DNA of 39,140 nt from Eubacterium sp. (GTDB taxonomy: Bacteria > Bacillota > Clostridia > Lachnospirales > Lachnospiraceae). This document shows, in pieces, positions 30,970-39,140 of this stretch; within the stretch, counting starts at the first letter, position 1, and every line of letters begins with the position of its first letter. The translations under genes and the position numbers were made by a program. Under the pieces are notes generated by a model that worked only from the letters and a program-made list of their open reading frames with translations, searched no databases and was not told the origin of the DNA. The stretch is from positions 1-39,140 of the forward strand of contig JAAVZE010000130.1 of assembly GCA_022791495.1 (NCBI GenBank). Direction: 5' to 3'.

Positions 30970-30984
30970 AAAGGTGAAGAGCAG

Positions 30985-31356
30985 ATGGACCGGTATGGGC
31001 GAGATAAAATTTTTTATGCTATAAGTGGCAAAAAGGATAACGCATTAGAGCTGTTGAATAATCTTGAAAATGTTGATTTTCAAGATAAAGCGGGCTATTC
31101 TTATCTTCATATAGCCGTTCAATCAAATTTTCTTGAAGCAGTCAATAAACTGTTAAAATTAAACTGCCGCATTGATATAAAGGACCAGTACGGCAGAACG
31201 CCACTTATGATTGCGTTTTCTTCATGGAATGGAGAAGAAGATGATGTGATACAGGTATTATTGGCGGCAGGAGCTAATATCAATGAAACGGCTGATTCAG
31301 GTGTATCTTGTCTGGAACTGGCCAAAATGAAAGGATATTCGGGGTTAGTACTCTGA
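30985..31356 (+). CDS. Ankyrin-repeat protein
   Basis: A 123-residue soluble protein made of about three ankyrin repeats. The second and third are clear: DKAGYSYLHIAVQSNFLEAV then NKLLKLNCRIDIKDQYGRTPLMIA, with the G-x-T-P-L-x-x-A signature, and a last unit DSGVSCLELAKMKGYSGL. Ankyrin stacks bind proteins. Small stand-alone copies like this are frequent as immunity proteins in Gram-positive toxin loci, but no toxin gene is visible beside it. GGTGAAGAG precedes the ATG. Its last codons form the left arm of the terminator at 31330-31367. Confidence 0.85.
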   Translation: MDRYGRDKIFYAISGKKDNALELLNNLENVDFQDKAGYSYLHIAVQSNFLEAVNKLLKLNCRIDIKDQYGRTPLMIAFSSWNGEEDDVIQVLLAAGANINETADSGVSCLELAKMKGYSGLVL

Positions 31357-31367
31357 TATCCTTTTTT
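31330..31367 (+). terminator. Terminator overlapping the ankyrin gene end
   Basis: AAAGGATAT (31330-31338) pairs with ATATCCTTT (31356-31364), followed by T residues. The left arm lies within the last codons of the gene. Confidence 0.7.
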
Positions 31368-31413
31368 CTGTTATATAATAGAAACTAATAGTATTTTTAA
31401 GGTTTATTTAAAG

Positions 31414-33155
31414 TTGGTGTATAAAACATCAGGAGCGTATAAGAAAAGTAAAGTCATTAAAAGTGGGAAAAGTAAGACCTTCAAAGTTAAAAAAACGACA
31501 GTTCTGTCGCTTTGTGCCGTAAAAAAATCAGAAAAGGTCACAAACCAGAAATTGAATAAACAATTTAAACAGAAGAAAAAGGCATATTATGCAAATTATA
31601 AATATACGATTTCCAGAAATGCCAATACGGCAGCTCCGACGGGGGAAGCCAGTACCGATGCTGTGGCGGGGGTGACGTCATCCCCGGCTCCTATAGCTGG
31701 GTCTGTACCGGAGGGGACGCCACCGGAAGGAGTAGTGCCGCCAACTGGAAGTATGCCTCCGGAAAATCCTCCATCCACCGGAACGGCTACTGCTGATCCG
31801 GAAGGGAAAAGAGTGGCAAAGGAGAAGTTGGATGCTGCGGAGAGCCTGCTTGCGGTCAGTATTGACGCACCGGTTACCAAAACACCTTCTTTGATAGGAG
31901 ATGGTACACCTGTTATCACTTTGACAGCAGATGGTATGAACGCTGAAAACTTAGGTGAGGGCGCAGCGGTGTATTCCCAGGAGGGAAATTTGAGAACTCT
32001 TACGATCAATAAGGCAGGAACTTATGTGCTGACGGGGGGAACGGTCTTGGAACCTGTGACAAATACGGAGATCATTGTGGCTGGAAATATCCTGGAAGAG
32101 GTAAATCTGATCTGGGATCATCTTGTTATAGATAACCGTGCATTGGGGAAAGAAGCTGGGGAGGATGTTCCTGTATTTCACATCAATAAATCCACTTCGG
32201 ATGTCCATGTGACATTGAAGGGAAGTTCTGTTTTGACAGGAAACGGTGCATACACAGAAAGTCCGGCGGCAGTGATCTGTGCAGATGATACAGAAACCAT
32301 GCTGACGTTTTCTGCATATGAGGGAGATGGCACAGCAAGTCTGACAGTTGTGGACGGAATGGATGCAGACATGGATTTTGGAGAGAATGATCCGTCAGTG
32401 AACCTGTGATCCGGATATATTCAGATGATGACGGCGTCAATGCTGCCTCCAAGTCCAAAGTAAATTATGTATATGAAGATGAATCCGAAGAAAAATACAC
32501 CAAAACACAGACGGCATCCAGTGATAATACGCTACAAGTGTTAAGTGGTTATCTGAATGTCATGATAGGAGATGATGAAACCCACAGTTTCTCGTTGTCT
32601 AACGCAGATGGAACAAAGACAACCGGCAGTTATACGTCGGATGGCGACGGGATCGACTGCAACGGAACCTTTTATGCTTATGGAGGTACCATTATAGTGT
32701 ATGGACCTGATTCGGATGGAAATTCAGCGGTGGATACGGATGACGGGTATTATATTGGTAACGGGGTGACGTTGCTGGCAGTTGGGAGAAGCGGCATGGC
32801 GGAATCTCCTTCCAGCAAAGAACAGCCCTTGGTAGTATATGGCGGTTCCACGGGCGGTTTTGGGGGCATGAGACCTGGACCGGGTGGTAATTCGGGAGGC
32901 GGTTCCTCAATCAGTGCTGGTACAGCATTTGCCATTATGAAGGATCAGGATATGCTCCTTGCCATCAAGCCGACAAAGAATTATAATTATGTTCTGTATA
33001 CGTCACCAGAGCTGGAAGCGGGTTCCACCTACACGATCTATCGTGGCGGCAGTGTCGGAGGTTCTCTGGTTCAGGCGGACAGCAGTGCTTATGACTACCG
33101 CTATACGGAATATGATGCTTCCGGGGCAGCGGTATTAAGTACGGTGACAGCATAA
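31414..33155 (+). pseudogene. Cthe_2159-type beta-helix carbohydrate-binding surface protein, decayed
   Basis: Two open frames in different registers belong to one former gene. The first (to 32409) has no signal peptide or ribosome site at its TTG, a Lys-rich N-terminal remnant, a Pro/Thr-rich linker, then GTPVITLTADGMNAENLGEG, LTINKAGTYVLTGGT and VHVTLKGSSVLTGNGA, which match the Cthe_2159 (DUF4353) carbohydrate-binding beta-helix. It stops right after SLTVVDGMDADMDF. The second (from about 32406) resumes at RIYSDDDGVNAASKSK and runs through GDGIDCNGTFYAYGGTI, a Gly-rich loop and a C-terminal FAIMKDQDMLLAIKP to TAA 33155. The middle of the helix seems deleted at the joint, and the 5' end with the export signal is lost. 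Confidence 0.75.
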
Positions 33156-33156
33156 A

Positions 33157-33513
33157 AATAAGGAACTTTCAAAAGCACTAGTGGCAATATTAAAACACAA
33201 TCATTTTTCCGTGGATGCAGTTTATGATGGAGAAGAGGCGCTGGTGTATCTGGAAGGGGAAAATTATGACGGTGTGATTCTGGATATCATGATGCCTAAG
33301 ATGGATGGGATTGCTGTGTTGAAAAAAATAAGACAGCAGGGAAGCCTGGTACCGGTTCTGATGCTCACGGCGAAATCGGAGATTGATGACCGGGTGCTGG
33401 GATTGGACAGCGGGGCGGATGATTATCTCAGTAAACCTTTTGATACAAAAGAACTGCTGGCGAGGATCCGCTCCATTACCAGGAGGAAAATGGTACCATT
33501 CGGGTGTCGTTGA
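33157..33513 (+). pseudogene. Response regulator receiver fragment (OmpR type)
   Basis: Encodes a receiver domain missing its first strand and acidic pair: it enters at KELSKALVAILKHNH, then YDGEEALVYL, VILDIMMPKMDG (phospho-Asp kept), VPVLMLTAKSEIDDRVLGLD, SGADDYLSKPFDTKELL. It stops after about 110 residues, before any DNA-binding domain. No ribosome site or proper start exists. It directly follows the broken beta-helix gene and runs into a kinase fragment, so both are leftovers of one two-component pair. Confidence 0.85.
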
Positions 33514-33752
33514 TGCGAAAGGGAAAACGAATACATTTTGAGGTGTATAATGAAACGGAAACGGTTCCAAAGGGAAACCTGGATATATTATTTGAACGAT
33601 TCTATCGTTTAGATGTTTCCCGAAATTCAGAAACAGGCGGTTCTGGAATTGGTCTCTCCGTAGCCCATGCGATCGTAAACGCGTATCATGGAAAGATCAG
33701 GGCGAAGAGCGACGATGGGAAAAGTATATGTGTCATTGTAGAATTATACTGA
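33486..33752 (+). pseudogene. Histidine kinase ATPase-domain fragment
   Basis: The last 88 residues of a HisKA-type kinase: ENGTIRVSLMRKGKRIHFEV, then NLDILFERFYRLDVSRN and the G2 box GGSGIGLSVAHAIVNAYHGK, ending in VELY. The frame enters in the middle of the ATPase domain from within the receiver fragment; everything from the receiver C-terminus to the kinase N box is gone. The lost piece is about 1.3-1.5 kb if the pair had normal length. Confidence 0.85.
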
Positions 33753-33847: not shown

Positions 33848-35131
33848 TTAATTGGAAATCAGCACCCGCAGCTTGAACCACTCCCCGCTCATGTCATAAT
33901 CCACCAGAGCGTGGTATTTCTCCGCAAAGGCCAGGATGCTCTGGGTTCCGTAGCCGTGATCTTTTTCCGTGGAGATGGGAACGCCGGATTCATCCAGACG
34001 GATGTCTTCCGCATAGGTGTTTGCTACCTCAAGGACAAACTGTGGGCTGTCAAAGCAGGTGATGCGGATTTTTCGTTTTGAAAAGTCGGGTATTTTCTGG
34101 CAGGCATGGATTGCATTCTCGATTGCGTTGGCGAACACCATGCAAAGCTCCATATCCTTTACAGGCAGGGCAGAAGAAAGTTGAAACTTGGCCTGCACGC
34201 TACAGTCTGCTTCCTTTGCAAGACCGAGATAGAATGTCAGGATCGAATTGAGCGCAGTGCTTTCACAGTAGCGGACAGTCTCATCCACGGGCACGATTTC
34301 GGTGGCATTATCGATGAAATCCAGGATGTCCTTCCTGCTTCCAGACTGCGCAAGGGAGAAGAGTCCGTTTTGGTAATGCTTCAGGTCGTGGCGGATAATG
34401 CGAAGCTTTTTCTCATTCTGCTCCAGCGTTTTGATCGTGTTTTCAAAGGAATGAAGCTGTATGGTCATTAACTTTTCCGTCTGCTCATGGCGGATGATGT
34501 TCTGCTGGGTGGCAATCGTCCGGAAAATAACGACAAAGGTCAGAATCATGGCGGCAATGTATGCGGTGTAGAGGGGAAAATCGGCAGGGCGGTCCTTGAT
34601 GGGCGTGGGATTGGTGCCCGAATATACCAATATGATATAAAAAAGTGCGGAGATGACGGCAATCAGCCACCACCCGCTGTGATCTTTCTCTGACACGATC
34701 TGGTAGAAACTCCGCATGAATTTCAGAATCAGAAATTCCGCAACAGGCGCAAGCAGAAGCCTCCCCAAAAAGAGAACCCAGATATTCCCACCGCACAGGG
34801 TGGAAAGCATACCGCAGCCGGTGCCGATGATAAGCATGACCATATCCCCGAAGCAGAAGGCGAAGATGACCTTTCCGTTTCGGTATTTGGAAACGAGGAA
34901 AAAGTAGAGGAAGCCGGGAAGGGCAAGCGTGACCAGCATTTTGTTGTTGGCGGGCACAATGCCGTTTACAAACATATCTATCGCATAAGGCAGGACGACC
35001 GCAGTCGCCACGACGGTACTGAGCAGGACATATATTTTCATATTTATGCGGGGGACGATAAGCGTCAAGCATATGATAAGCGTAAAAAATATTGTTGTGG
35101 CATTTGAAATGATCAGTAATGTATTTTCCAT
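33848..35131 (-). CDS. AgrC-like GHKL sensor histidine kinase
   Basis: A 427-residue membrane sensor kinase. Residues about 5-210 contain six or seven helices. A coiled-coil helix leads to the phospho-acceptor segment IIRHDLKHYQNGLF, with the His typical of HPK10 (LytTR-partner) kinases. The GHKL ATPase has N box VFANAIENAIHAC and G box GYGTQSI. Such kinases usually pair with a LytTR response regulator, often sensing peptides. Here the only LytTR remnant is the tail of the upstream gene, ending 5 bp before this start. GGAGAT lies 9 nt before ATG 35131. GC is clearly higher than in the main BlaR1 region (57 of 120 in 34861-34980). Confidence 0.92.
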   Translation of the reverse strand: MENTLLIISNATTIFFTLIICLTLIVPRINMKIYVLLSTVVATAVVLPYAIDMFVNGIVPANNKMLVTLALPGFLYFFLVSKYRNGKVIFAFCFGDMVMLIIGTGCGMLSTLCGGNIWVLFLGRLLLAPVAEFLILKFMRSFYQIVSEKDHSGWWLIAVISALFYIILVYSGTNPTPIKDRPADFPLYTAYIAAMILTFVVIFRTIATQQNIIRHEQTEKLMTIQLHSFENTIKTLEQNEKKLRIIRHDLKHYQNGLFSLAQSGSRKDILDFIDNATEIVPVDETVRYCESTALNSILTFYLGLAKEADCSVQAKFQLSSALPVKDMELCMVFANAIENAIHACQKIPDFSKRKIRITCFDSPQFVLEVANTYAEDIRLDESGVPISTEKDHGYGTQSILAFAEKYHALVDYDMSGEWFKLRVLISN

Positions 35132-35136
35132 ATAAT

Positions 35137-37155
35137 CTATTTATCTCCTATGATAAAATCAAGGTATTTTTTCTTTGCATCTGAGAACCGCCTCGTTATT
35201 TTGTAGACAGAGCCGTCGTCCATGATGAAGGCATCGCCGTCCACGCTCCTTATATGGCCGGCGTTTATGATGTGGCTTGCCGAGACTTTTAAAAAGCGGC
35301 CGCTTTTCATAAATTCCGACACGGAAACATCAAACGCTTCCCTCTGCTGGAAACTGATTTTGTCATTATTGGATAAGACCGCAGAGAAGTTGTTTTTATT
35401 ATCTGCCTGAGCTTTTGTTATCCATTCCTGCTTTTCATTTTTTGTCATATAAGGAACAATAACAGTAAAGAATGAAATATTGTTTGCTGCATAACATTTT
35501 TCTGCATATTGATTCAGTTCATCTGATTGTGTACTGCCTATATAGCCTATAATGACAGAAAAGAAATTCACTCTTTGGTCTTGGCTTGATTTATCCGCAT
35601 ACATCATAACTAAATCTCTATTCATGTACGGTATGATTGACGAAAAGAAAGCAATTTTATTATCATCATATATCTTTTGGCAATATCCCTTTTGAAGTTC
35701 CGTATCTAATGCAGTGAAAATTGCTGAAAATCCAGTCAAATTTTCATTTTCAAAATATCCTTCTGCAAGTGTTGATAAATCATTTTCGCTCACATAAGTA
35801 ATATTTGTAATCAGCGGCATATCTATCATTGGATAATCTTGCATATCTTTATTTTTCAAAGAATAAATCAACTTGCCGATTGCAGAAATAGCGTTACTTT
35901 CGTTCAGATAATCTATTGCATTTTCATCAAAAAATACTTTTATTGTGGAGTTATCTTCTAAGGTTATTTCCTTGCTGTTTACATATTCTTTGCTTAATGT
36001 TTCGCTTAAATTCCAGCCCATTTCAATGATGTAGGAATCGGAATAGTAACCGCGCTGAACAAACGTATAATTGCTGTTGCTACCAGTATTCGGGGTAGCA
36101 TTTAACACTTTTTCTCTATTATCAGCAGAAGGTGCGGCATATGCGCCCGTTACAAAAAAGCAGATACATACTGCAACAGTGAAAATAGTAGTAATAACAA
36201 TGGCTCCTTTTGACATTTTCTTGAATTTCATAATAGCACCTAACCTTTCTTTTAATTGTTCCGCTCCCTCCGTTAAAGTGACGGAAGCCAAAGAGCTTTT
36301 ATAGAGATTATTTGACTTCAAAAAAGAAATCAGCGTGTCCCCATACTCACATCTTGCCTTATCATCAAGTACAGATAAGACTTTTTCATCACATGACAGT
36401 TCGCAAGATTTATTTACTTCCCTTTCCATCAGATATACAAAAGGATTAAACCAATGGACGCATACGACAATCTGTATCAGCCATTTATAAAACATATCCC
36501 TTTGTTTATAGTGGATTAACTCATGCGTAAAAATATAGGACAGTTCTTTATTGCTCAACTCATGAGTTGGTAAAACGATTCTTGGACGAAAGAAGCCAAT
36601 CATAATAGGGGAAGTAATCAGCGGGTTATTGGATACCTCCACTCTTGTTTTGATATTCAGTTTTTCCTCACAATCAGATAATAAGTTTAAGGTTTTAATA
36701 TCCGATACTTCTGTATTACCAGCTTTGATGTATTGGATAAAACCTTGATAGACCGTTATCTTACGGACAAATAAAATCAATGCCAACACTAACCAGATAA
36801 AAAACAGGCAGACGTATATATTTAACGGCTCATGCGCGACAACTGGGGATATATCCCGGTTTGTCTGTGTTAGTTCTGTTTCATTGTTATCCTCATTTAT
36901 GGAAACAGGTACATTAGGGATTGTTGGAGTTTCATTTGTTATCGTTGCTGTATCAAACTTTTCAAACAGGCTTCCGACAATCGTAGTATCGGGAGTAAAA
37001 GGAAGCAGAAAACGCAACGCCACAATTAGCCAAATATAATACTGCCAACGCTTGCTGAATCCGTTTTTATATAATGGTTTCAATCCCCAAATGATAAGTA
37101 ATAACAATGCGCCGGAAACAGACAGCGACAATAGTATTTTCATAAATTCATTCAT
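35137..37155 (-). CDS. BlaR1-like M56 peptidase fused to a LytTR half-domain
   Basis: A 672-residue fusion. Residues 1-330 are the BlaR1/MecR1 N-terminus: several membrane helices and the zinc site FTHELIHYKQRDM (H211-E-L-I-H215), then RCEYGDTLISFL. Residues about 331-600 are an extracellular, repetitive sensor region rich in F-F-S-x-I-I-P-Y-M and Y-A-x-K units. From about residue 600 (near nt 35360) the sequence becomes a LytTR DNA-binding half: DKISFQQREAFDVSVSEFM, then SGRFLKVSASHIINAGHIRS and DDGSVYKITRRFSDAKKKYL. GC changes at the same point: 36 of 120 in 35401-35520 versus 60 of 120 in 35161-35280. The start overlaps blaI by 8 bp; the AgrC-like kinase follows after 5 bp. The membrane topology would leave the LytTR part outside the cell if there is no extra span. 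Confidence 0.85.
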   Translation of the reverse strand: MNEFMKILLSLSVSGALLLLIIWGLKPLYKNGFSKRWQYYIWLIVALRFLLPFTPDTTIVGSLFEKFDTATITNETPTIPNVPVSINEDNNETELTQTNRDISPVVAHEPLNIYVCLFFIWLVLALILFVRKITVYQGFIQYIKAGNTEVSDIKTLNLLSDCEEKLNIKTRVEVSNNPLITSPIMIGFFRPRIVLPTHELSNKELSYIFTHELIHYKQRDMFYKWLIQIVVCVHWFNPFVYLMEREVNKSCELSCDEKVLSVLDDKARCEYGDTLISFLKSNNLYKSSLASVTLTEGAEQLKERLGAIMKFKKMSKGAIVITTIFTVAVCICFFVTGAYAAPSADNREKVLNATPNTGSNSNYTFVQRGYYSDSYIIEMGWNLSETLSKEYVNSKEITLEDNSTIKVFFDENAIDYLNESNAISAIGKLIYSLKNKDMQDYPMIDMPLITNITYVSENDLSTLAEGYFENENLTGFSAIFTALDTELQKGYCQKIYDDNKIAFFSSIIPYMNRDLVMMYADKSSQDQRVNFFSVIIGYIGSTQSDELNQYAEKCYAANNISFFTVIVPYMTKNEKQEWITKAQADNKNNFSAVLSNNDKISFQQREAFDVSVSEFMKSGRFLKVSASHIINAGHIRSVDGDAFIMDDGSVYKITRRFSDAKKKYLDFIIGDK

Positions 37156-37522
37156 TTTCTTTTCTCCAAAATGATTCTATCTCTTTCAATTCGTCTGCCA
37201 AAAGAATATCCTGCCGCAACAAGGTTGACACTAAATTTTTCACATTCCCGCTGTAGACTTTATCAAGAAAGCGGTGGGTCTGCATGTTCTGGTATTCTGC
37301 TTCTGTTAACGTAGCCACATACTCATTCTTCCTGCCTATTTTTTTGACTTTCAAGAACTTTTTTTCTCCTAATCGGGAAAGCAGCGTGAGTACGGTGTTG
37401 TTCTTCCATTCGTTTTTGTCTTTTTCCAATTCCTCTATGATGAGGGAGTATAAAGCTGTCCCTCCTTTCTTCCAAATAATTTTCATGAGTACCAATTCGG
37501 ATTCAGAAATTTGCTGTGCCAT
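37148..37522 (-). CDS. BlaI/MecI family repressor
   Basis: A 124-residue winged-helix repressor matching BlaI/MecI over its length: ISESELVLMKIIWKKGGTAL, then NNTVLTLLSRLGEKKFLKVK and the C-terminal dimer helices. BlaI dimers repress until the BlaR1 partner triggers their cleavage. The expected cleavage region around the winged-helix/dimer joint is present. GGAGG lies 6 nt before ATG. It leads an operon with the M56 fusion and the GHKL kinase. Two 21-bp direct repeats in its promoter are the likely operators. Confidence 0.93.
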   Translation of the reverse strand: MAQQISESELVLMKIIWKKGGTALYSLIIEELEKDKNEWKNNTVLTLLSRLGEKKFLKVKKIGRKNEYVATLTEAEYQNMQTHRFLDKVYSGNVKNLVSTLLRQDILLADELKEIESFWRKENE

Positions 37523-37534
37523 TTTGTCCTCCTT

Positions 37535-37592
37535 TTATCTCAACACTTTGTGGGTATATAATTATCTTAACACTTTGTAGGTGATAATGCAA
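37535..37592 (-). promoter_or_regulatory. blaI promoter with two 21-bp operator repeats
   Basis: Minus-strand TTGCAT (37592-37587), 17-bp spacer, TAAGAT (37569-37564). Direct repeats at 37562-37582 and 37535-37555 match at 19 of 21 positions and are 27 bp apart. Each contains the BlaI-like half-site pair ACA-AAG-TGT; one lies in the spacer and the other just past the start of transcription. Confidence 0.7.
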
Positions 37593-37679
37593 TACTCTAA
37601 AGGAAATTTAAGAATTTATAAAAAGGCAGGCAGAGTGCATCAGGCAAGGCAGAAAGATAAAGGGGCGAGGTAACAGAGA

Positions 37680-37757
37680 ATGGACATAGGTTATCGTAAG
37701 TTTTTTAGAGTGAAGAAAAATGTTCTCAAACAGCAGCGAAATAGGAAACGAAGATAA
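37680..37757 (+). CDS. Possible 25-residue basic peptide
   Basis: An open frame MDIGYRKFFRVKKNVLKQQR then NRKRR, with GAGGTAACAG before the ATG. It is highly basic and does not look like a pheromone precursor. A still shorter frame (37790-37825, MLGNKCKSYRK, with GGAGG upstream) follows. Either may be chance or decayed sequence; there is no other gene between blaI and the next kinase. Confidence 0.25.
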   Translation: MDIGYRKFFRVKKNVLKQQRNRKRR

Positions 37758-37826
37758 TCTGCTGCTTTGGATTGCGGATGGAGGTACGAATGTTGGGAAA
37801 TAAATGTAAAAGCTATAGGAAGTGAA

Positions 37827-37858
37827 AACAGGGATTATGGTTTTTCATAATCCCTGTT
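37827..37858 (-). terminator. Strong hairpin at the end of the second GHKL kinase gene
   Basis: A perfect 13-bp stem AACAGGGATTATG / CATAATCCCTGTT around a 6-nt loop. On the minus strand the stem is followed by TTTTC. Its first arm overlaps the last codons and the TGA of the kinase gene (37845). Confidence 0.75.
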
Positions 37859-39140
37859 GCTTTAAAGTAATGATTGCATGGAACGTCAATGTATCGGAAT
37901 TGTAGTATATCTGCATATTTCCATTGTACTTGGCGACAATTTTGCGGATGCTTTTAAGTCCGAAACCATGCTTATGGCTGCGGGGTATACTTATAGTTGG
38001 ACTACCATTTTTTGTTATGAAAGGATCTGTCCGGCAGGAATTTATGACCGTCAAAACTGTAAATGGAGTTTTTACTTTTTTGTTTGTACTAATTTCAATA
38101 AATGATTCTGGAATGTATTCAGCCGCTTTCACAGCATTGTCGAGAAGATTGCAGAACAATGAGGTAAGGTCATTGTCAGCAATAAAATCTGTCGTTCCGC
38201 TTCGTATATCAGCGTGAAAAGCTATGTGGTTGTCAGTACACTGCTGCATATAGCGACATAGAATGGAGTTTAGCATTTCATGATCACATAGCCGGGAAGA
38301 TTCTTTTAAGTCTGAGGAAAGCACCAATTGTCGGATGTAGGCGCTTATTTTATCATATTCCTTTTGTTCATTCAGCATATCAATAGACTGCAGGTGTTTT
38401 TTTATGTCATGGATTAAAATACGTTGGTTTTCATTCTGTACATTCAGCATTTTATAGTATTGTGCCGAATCAGCCTCTTTTTGAAGCAATAATTGCATTT
38501 CTGTAAATTCCATGTTTTTTTTCTGATGATACTGATTGATTTCAAACATGAGCAGATTTGCTGTCAGCAAAAAAACAGCACCCACAACAACCATCCAATC
38601 AAGTGATGACGGGAGTGAAACAGATTCACCAATACTTATAAAAGTAAACATAATAAAGATTGAGGTTAAGGGAATGAAAACAAGAAGAAAAACAGATTTA
38701 TCATATTTTTCTGTGTTCTTCTTTGGGTTTTGCATTAGGTGCATTAGTATATAAGTAACAACAAAGAATATGAGCTTACTAAAGACCGAAAAAAATAAAA
38801 GATGATAAAATTCTCTGTCATTATCAAGGAAGTGAGGGGAAAATCGCTTGATAATTCCATAAACAATTAATTCACTCATTGCCATAACAGCCGTCAGAAT
38901 AGAAGAATGAAATATTGCTGTATACCAATTTAGATAACATTGTGTCATAAAAAAAATGAAATTCAACAAAAAATATAAAATGATATTAAGCCATATAAAT
39001 TCAGACAGTGACACGCAAAACAGGATAAAATATAAACTGCATAGTACGACTAACTTTCTCTGAGAGGAGTGTTTTGTGGGAAATAAATGGGAGGAGTATT
39101 GCCAAAGTATAATTGCTTCTACAAGGAAACTGAAAAAATA
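37845..39140 (-). CDS. GHKL sensor histidine kinase, 5' end beyond the window
   Basis: The frame stays open to the right edge; the GTG at 39014 is internal, because upstream codons continue as membrane sequence (FSFLVEAIILWQYSSHLF). At least 431 residues are visible. Several N-terminal helices are followed by a coiled coil and the phospho-acceptor segment ILIHDIKKHLQSIDML. The ATPase has an N box LFCNLLDNAVKAAEYI and a G box HGFGLKSIRKIVAKYNGNM. This is a HPK10-type kinase that normally works with a LytTR regulator, which would lie off the window. It is followed by a strong terminator, so it is separate from the blaI operon. Confidence 0.9.
   Translation of the reverse strand, partial: YFFSFLVEAIILWQYSSHLFPTKHSSQRKLVVLCSLYFILFCVSLSEFIWLNIILYFLLNFIFFMTQCYLNWYTAIFHSSILTAVMAMSELIVYGIIKRFSPHFLDNDREFYHLLFFSVFSKLIFFVVTYILMHLMQNPKKNTEKYDKSVFLLVFIPLTSIFIMFTFISIGESVSLPSSLDWMVVVGAVFLLTANLLMFEINQYHQKKNMEFTEMQLLLQKEADSAQYYKMLNVQNENQRILIHDIKKHLQSIDMLNEQKEYDKISAYIRQLVLSSDLKESSRLCDHEMLNSILCRYMQQCTDNHIAFHADIRSGTTDFIADNDLTSLFCNLLDNAVKAAEYIPESFIEISTNKKVKTPFTVLTVINSCRTDPFITKNGSPTISIPRSHKHGFGLKSIRKIVAKYNGNMQIYYNSDTLTFHAIITLKQQGL

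Follow-up and report, generated by a model that had tools for sequence, protein, structure and literature searches.

The window, by which we mean the whole stretch of DNA analyzed, is the complete 39,140 bp contig C49 of G000, a 2.9 Mb draft genome that comprises 201 contigs and is 83% complete. On the minus strand we identified, in order, a blaI-like gene, an ORF of 672 amino acids (35137-37155) and an AgrC-like GHKL kinase gene. Within the 672-aa ORF, an M56/BlaR1-like receptor is continued in frame by a tail from the end of a LytTR regulator. The features are:

37537..37581, minus strand: two copies of CC(T/C)ACAAAGTGTT(A/G)AGAT (motif matches), probable BlaI operators that overlap the blaI promoter
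37148..37522, minus strand: blaI-like repressor, 124 aa, Pfam Penicillinase_R E-value 7e-28
35365..37155, minus strand: BlaR1-like M56 receptor, retaining residues 1-597 of its original 600, with HEXXH at 211-215 and a helical sensor to about residue 596
35137..35364, minus strand: appended tail of 75 residues (598-672) plus stop codon, C-terminal part of an AgrA-type LytTR regulator
33848..35131, minus strand: intact AgrC-like GHKL histidine kinase, 427 aa, Pfam HATPase_c_5 E-value 3e-17
30976..33752, plus strand: decay zone beyond the kinase, with six net losses of 72-1331 bp relative to same-genus genomes

The stop codon of the fused ORF ends at 35137 and the kinase ATG lies at 35131, which leaves a gap of 5 bp. 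No complete regulator now adjoins this kinase. The operator motif has two matches at ≤3 mismatches, against 0.07 expected by chance, and similar sites occur upstream of blaI in the aligned related loci. The role of operator is probable from the position of the repeats and their ACA-N3-TGT symmetry, which we take to be BlaI-like. Upstream of blaI, a second GHKL kinase of low GC content (0.34; 37845-39140) runs off the contig end; it has a 68% DNA match over about 820 bp in genome G060. The genome also holds a second blaI copy, as another contig ends inside a blaI that is 90% identical over 211 bp.

The receptor part matches Pfam Peptidase_M56 over residues 7-308 of the ORF (E-value 4e-72), and H211, E212, H215 and E252 are invariant in all 17 aligned receptor sequences. 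We take E252 to be a zinc ligand. As in BlaR1/MecR1 systems, a BlaI-family repressor adjoins the receptor gene. The initial annotation had described the protein as starting like a normal BlaR1. This description fits the M56 core with its HEXXH motif and the BlaI neighbor, but not the sensor, for which Pfam gave no transpeptidase (penicillin-binding) match at an E-value ≤1. The NCBIfam model blaR1_generic likewise covers residues 9-331 only, at 182 bits against a cutoff of 400. Because the sensor has no penicillin-binding domain match, we classify the N-terminal part, on its sequence, as BlaR1-like rather than as a full BlaR1. The nearest relative found, at locus L029, has 600 residues and shares 89% identity over residues 1-597. 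The joint therefore exchanges no more than the final three residues and the stop codon for foreign sequence, so that the receptor is complete and the tail an appendage. Relative to L029, dN/dS is 0.17 for BlaR1, with no frameshift, and 0.07 for BlaI; these values describe the lineage and give no date for the fusion.

The assignment of the tail to a LytTR regulator needed more care. Alone, the tail matches positions 44-96 of 98 in the LytTR profile at an E-value of 0.027 and 15.1 bits, below the curated cutoff of 22.6; the complete LytTR domain of a related regulator, at locus L134, scores only 27.4 bits. In direct phmmer comparisons, residues 598-672 matched LytTR regulators with best E-values of 2.9e-15, for a regulator of genome G112 that is truncated by a contig end, and 3.1e-10, for a complete one of G053, and none of 50 shuffled tails matched at an E-value ≤1e-3 in the same 5347 ORFs. 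Thus, the profile search proposed as a check stayed below threshold and the direct matches carried it: at the sequence level the homology is clear, and the ORF does combine a BlaR1-like start with a LytTR-regulator end, as first annotated. A PDB search with a profile from alignment A2 (99 sequences) has little bearing on the tail, as its best 60 matches were mostly to receiver domains, which the tail does not contain.

In 247-aa regulators encoded ahead of kinases of this type, only the last 75-80 or so residues align with the tail. The part retained starts at about residue 169 of 247, inside the LytTR domain (142-231 in the L134 regulator), so that the first part of this domain is gone, and Pfam gave no Response_reg match anywhere in the fused ORF. 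The two best tail matches outside the window, in G112 and G053, are regulators encoded directly 5′ of AgrC-like kinases, as is a complete regulator in G015, and the kinases of these three genomes are among the four best relatives of the window kinase outside its own genome. This regulator-kinase order, together with the 5 bp gap, bears out the earlier description of the downstream gene as the usual partner of such a regulator. The genome holds no second copy of the tail at an E-value ≤0.001 (the single match is the window itself), and no clear orphan regulator half was seen among its 56 receiver-domain matches, judged by open-frame lengths only.

On the receptor side the joint is sharp. DNA similarity to L029 is still 95% in the final 101 bp but is lost at about 35365, where the sequence departs abruptly from both L029 and a further related locus, L043. 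GC content changes from 0.308 (35401-35520) to 0.492 (35161-35280), the jump noted at the outset. The regulator/kinase DNA has no close relative in 39 genomes of the genus. At the protein level, the top relatives of the kinase in 195 genomes reach only about 31-32% identity. Because these relatives are so distant, the break point on the regulator side is not visible. A distant-mode search of 35100-35450 against plasmids gave no match. Simple insertion of a blaI-blaR1 cassette into a regulator gene was considered and rejected, as the upstream stretch 37626-39140 holds another kinase and not the missing regulator half.

Receptor residues 6-377 align with residues 3-375 of Staphylococcus aureus BlaR1. 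In that protein, the sensor that follows the last helix lies outside the cell and is released through cleavage by signal peptidase (PMC9834060). By this homology, the tail should be extracytoplasmic. The last hydrophobic segment of the window receptor (317-335) is preceded by the basic residues of KFKKMSK and followed by TGAYAAPSA, which by eye is a possible signal-peptidase site. Since the tail lies beyond the last membrane helix and contains neither a receiver nor the start of the LytTR domain, it is very unlikely to bind DNA. An AlphaFold model (mean pLDDT 50.7, global pTM 0.38) is usable only for the sensor: blocks of residues 371-590 are mostly at pLDDT 72-90 and those past 600 at 26-52, so that a helical sensor is modeled with good confidence to about residue 596 and nothing confident lies beyond, where the tail had no relatives in the alignment. 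The M56 part was modeled poorly, and the model is no test of topology. Foldseek comparison of the model with the PDB gave no match at an E-value ≤0.001.

We scanned 84,980 species genomes (GTDB 220) and recovered 68 related loci, none of which holds a second fusion. Among 99 genomes, including the window's own, 20 (again including it) have a tail match at an E-value ≤0.001; the 20 matches outside the window lie in open frames of 244-283 aa, the normal size of a regulator. In 299 genomes of the family, 49 (own genome included) have a tail match, and the open frames outside the window range from 111 to 426 aa. The two extremes were examined: the 111-aa frame of G112 is cut by a contig end, and the 426-aa frame of G375 has no BlaR1 profile match and consists of a regulator whose frame stays open further upstream. 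No second fusion was thus found among the listed LytTR matches of either set. BlaR1 and regulator profile matches occur together in six ORFs of 161 loci, all of them overlapping copies of the window itself, and the 23-mer spanning the joint has no occurrence in IMG/VR. Within the genomes searched, then, the fusion is a singleton. Within our literature searches on BlaR1/LytTR and on BlaI/BlaR1/Lachnospiraceae, we saw no printed case of an M56-LytTR fusion.

The BlaR1 matches are mostly from Lachnospiraceae and other Clostridia, and several names, such as muris, suggest the mouse gut. Per locus, the long DNA match to the window has a median identity of 85% (at least 83% in 58 of the 68 loci). 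It starts at exactly 37625 in 39 of the 68 and in most loci ends at 36.1-36.2 kb, after the M56 core. The core (36118-37625) is conserved across L029-L096 and is joined to very different sensors. Single-linkage BLAST placed the protein ends after residue 345 in seven groups (66 proteins, window included, with L094-L096 dropped as incomplete), although single linkage lumps sensors that share one module. Relative to L029, dS is 0.53 for the core and 0.15 for the sensor, which suggests sensor exchange by recombination; the comparison with L043 (0.29 and 0.25) has no such difference. Some of these loci lie in ICE/IME-like surroundings. In L160 (2028-6974; contig G024:C92, same genus), the blaI-blaR1 pair follows a CD1115-type VirD4 gene and a truncated Maff2 ORF, whose match stops at position 43 of the 70 in the profile, as though cargo had inserted into Maff2; this locus also has a sigma-70 region 4 gene. 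L030 has a NikA-like gene and a relaxase gene.

Beyond the kinase, the window from 30.6 to 33.75 kb can be compared with same-genus genomes. Relative to G001 it has net losses of 244, 72, 943, 77 and 1331 bp at 31.42, 31.69, 32.40, 33.17 and 33.49 kb, and relative to G017 one of 622 bp at 30.98 kb. Most of the six break genes: the G001 counterparts are a 983-aa Cthe_2159-type protein with a carbohydrate-binding domain, a 225-aa OmpR-type regulator and a 467-aa kinase, all present in the window as fragments. The Cthe_2159-type gene (31414-33155) is broken by losses at its start, inside and at its end. The 72 bp difference falls in a proline-rich stretch of this gene and may be either a loss or a gain. 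A 9/10-base repeat marks the ends of the 77 bp loss, and no comparable end repeats were seen at the other losses of the zone. At 33163-33752, the 1331 bp net loss has brought the start of the OmpR-type regulator up against the final part of a kinase ATPase domain; on its sequence, this is a second deletion-made junction, a product of the same kind as the fusion. The nearest loss lies 1.9 kb from the joint, with the intact kinase between, so the zone is tied to the joint by neighborhood and kind, which is not proof.

G017 likewise has only a kinase end at the spot of the decay zone, and G001 and G017 carry different agr-type pairs at the corresponding spot, so that turnover at this site seems to be high. 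G017 has its regulator-kinase pair about 0.9 kb downstream of a BlaI-BlaR1 pair and on the same strand; this BlaR1 is only distantly related to the window receptor (profile E-value 1.6e-14). The G017 locus (L145, 1046-9448 of contig G017:C1) comprises the BlaI-BlaR1 pair, the LytTR regulator, the GHKL kinase and, in addition, a radical SAM gene, and may be a cluster for peptide maturation.

We consider it likely that the fusion is the scar of a deletion or other illegitimate rearrangement in a decaying region of high turnover. Such an event would have taken out the sequence downstream of blaR1 and the first two thirds of a LytTR regulator gene, so that blaR1 codon 597 now reads in frame into the last 75 codons of the regulator. 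The promoter and operators would still drive blaI-blaR1, and BlaR1 would still fold and could signal to BlaI via its cytosolic M56 domain. The added residues would follow the sensor outside the cell as a presumably inert tail that does not bind DNA, and the kinase would be co-transcribed from the blaI promoter as an orphan that has lost its own regulator. Consistent with this origin, the joint lies at residue 597 where the L029 protein ends at 600, six losses lie nearby, and the tail is truncated. Against it, the reading frames of BlaR1 and of the kinase are undamaged, which sets them apart from the pseudogenes nearby. The shared block from 37625 to 35365 also stops close to the boundaries of the operon at either end, and random decay would not necessarily produce this. 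The proposal in the initial annotation that a blaI-blaR1 operon and an agr-type operon were fused by an in-frame deletion is thus kept as to the in-frame joining and to deletion as the most likely cause; a single deletion between formerly adjacent operons is no more than a possibility, as we found no relative with both flanks of the joint intact.

It is unlikely that the joint is an assembly or library artifact, a chimera of a mobile-element blaR1 and a regulator-kinase fragment formed in silico or in vitro, although the genome is a fragmented and incomplete draft, blaI-blaR1 is repeated in it, with one copy cut by a contig end, and the joint was found in no other genome. Graph errors need about k shared bases, whereas the blaR1 side departs abruptly from L029 and L043; this is not proof, and it speaks only to graph errors, since a library chimera could be just as abrupt. 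The kinase also keeps its 5 bp distance from the regulator end, as in a native operon. It is improbable that capture of the operon was a useful outcome, with the kinase placed under BlaI/BlaR1 control and acting on another LytTR regulator. The short intergenic gap, the probable operators and 15 LytTR matches elsewhere in the genome would suit such a circuit, but we found no conserved example and no sign of cross-talk, and the G017 parallel has a distant BlaR1 and a wide gap. Slightly less probable again is a picture in which neighboring DNA repeatedly supplies new or additional extracellular ends to a conserved, mobile BlaI-BlaR1 core. The fusion would then be a snapshot of this process, with the captured LytTR end and a kinase under BlaI control forming a hybrid receptor-kinase circuit, and would illustrate one step in how such receptors acquire new ends. 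We give hardly any credence to a functional fusion in which the tail lends the receptor a new role, for example in kinase contact or in binding outside the cell: the frame is open through both partners and the kinase follows closely, but the domain is truncated and predicted to lie outside the membrane, no confident fold was modeled past the joint, and the genomes searched held no second instance. The suggestion of a new arrangement uniting a protease receptor with a DNA-binding end is not supported, given a complete receptor, a truncated tail that is extracytoplasmic by homology, the lack of a second case and the nearby deletion scars.

As a protein architecture, the chimeric ORF probably matters little, being most likely a product of decay. 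For scans of domain fusions the case is cautionary: convincing two-domain proteins can result from in-frame deletions in draft genomes. The widespread BlaI-BlaR1 core with its varied sensor ends raises the question of what the non-beta-lactam sensors detect.

Like S. aureus BlaR1/BlaI (PDB 8exp), the window system has an M56 metalloprotease membrane core and a blaI-like gene directly upstream, but its receptor has a helical sensor with no penicillin-binding match and a foreign tail of 75 residues. Compared with AgrA-type LytTR regulators and their AgrC-like GHKL kinases, the homology extends to the last 75 or so residues, with the kinase directly downstream, whereas the receiver and the first LytTR part are missing. 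A third likeness is to the BlaI-BlaR1-like pairs of Lachnospiraceae and other Clostridia (L029, L030 and L160, some of them ICE/IME-like), which share 84-89% DNA identity with the window over 35365-37625 but differ in their flanks, which are absent from the window.
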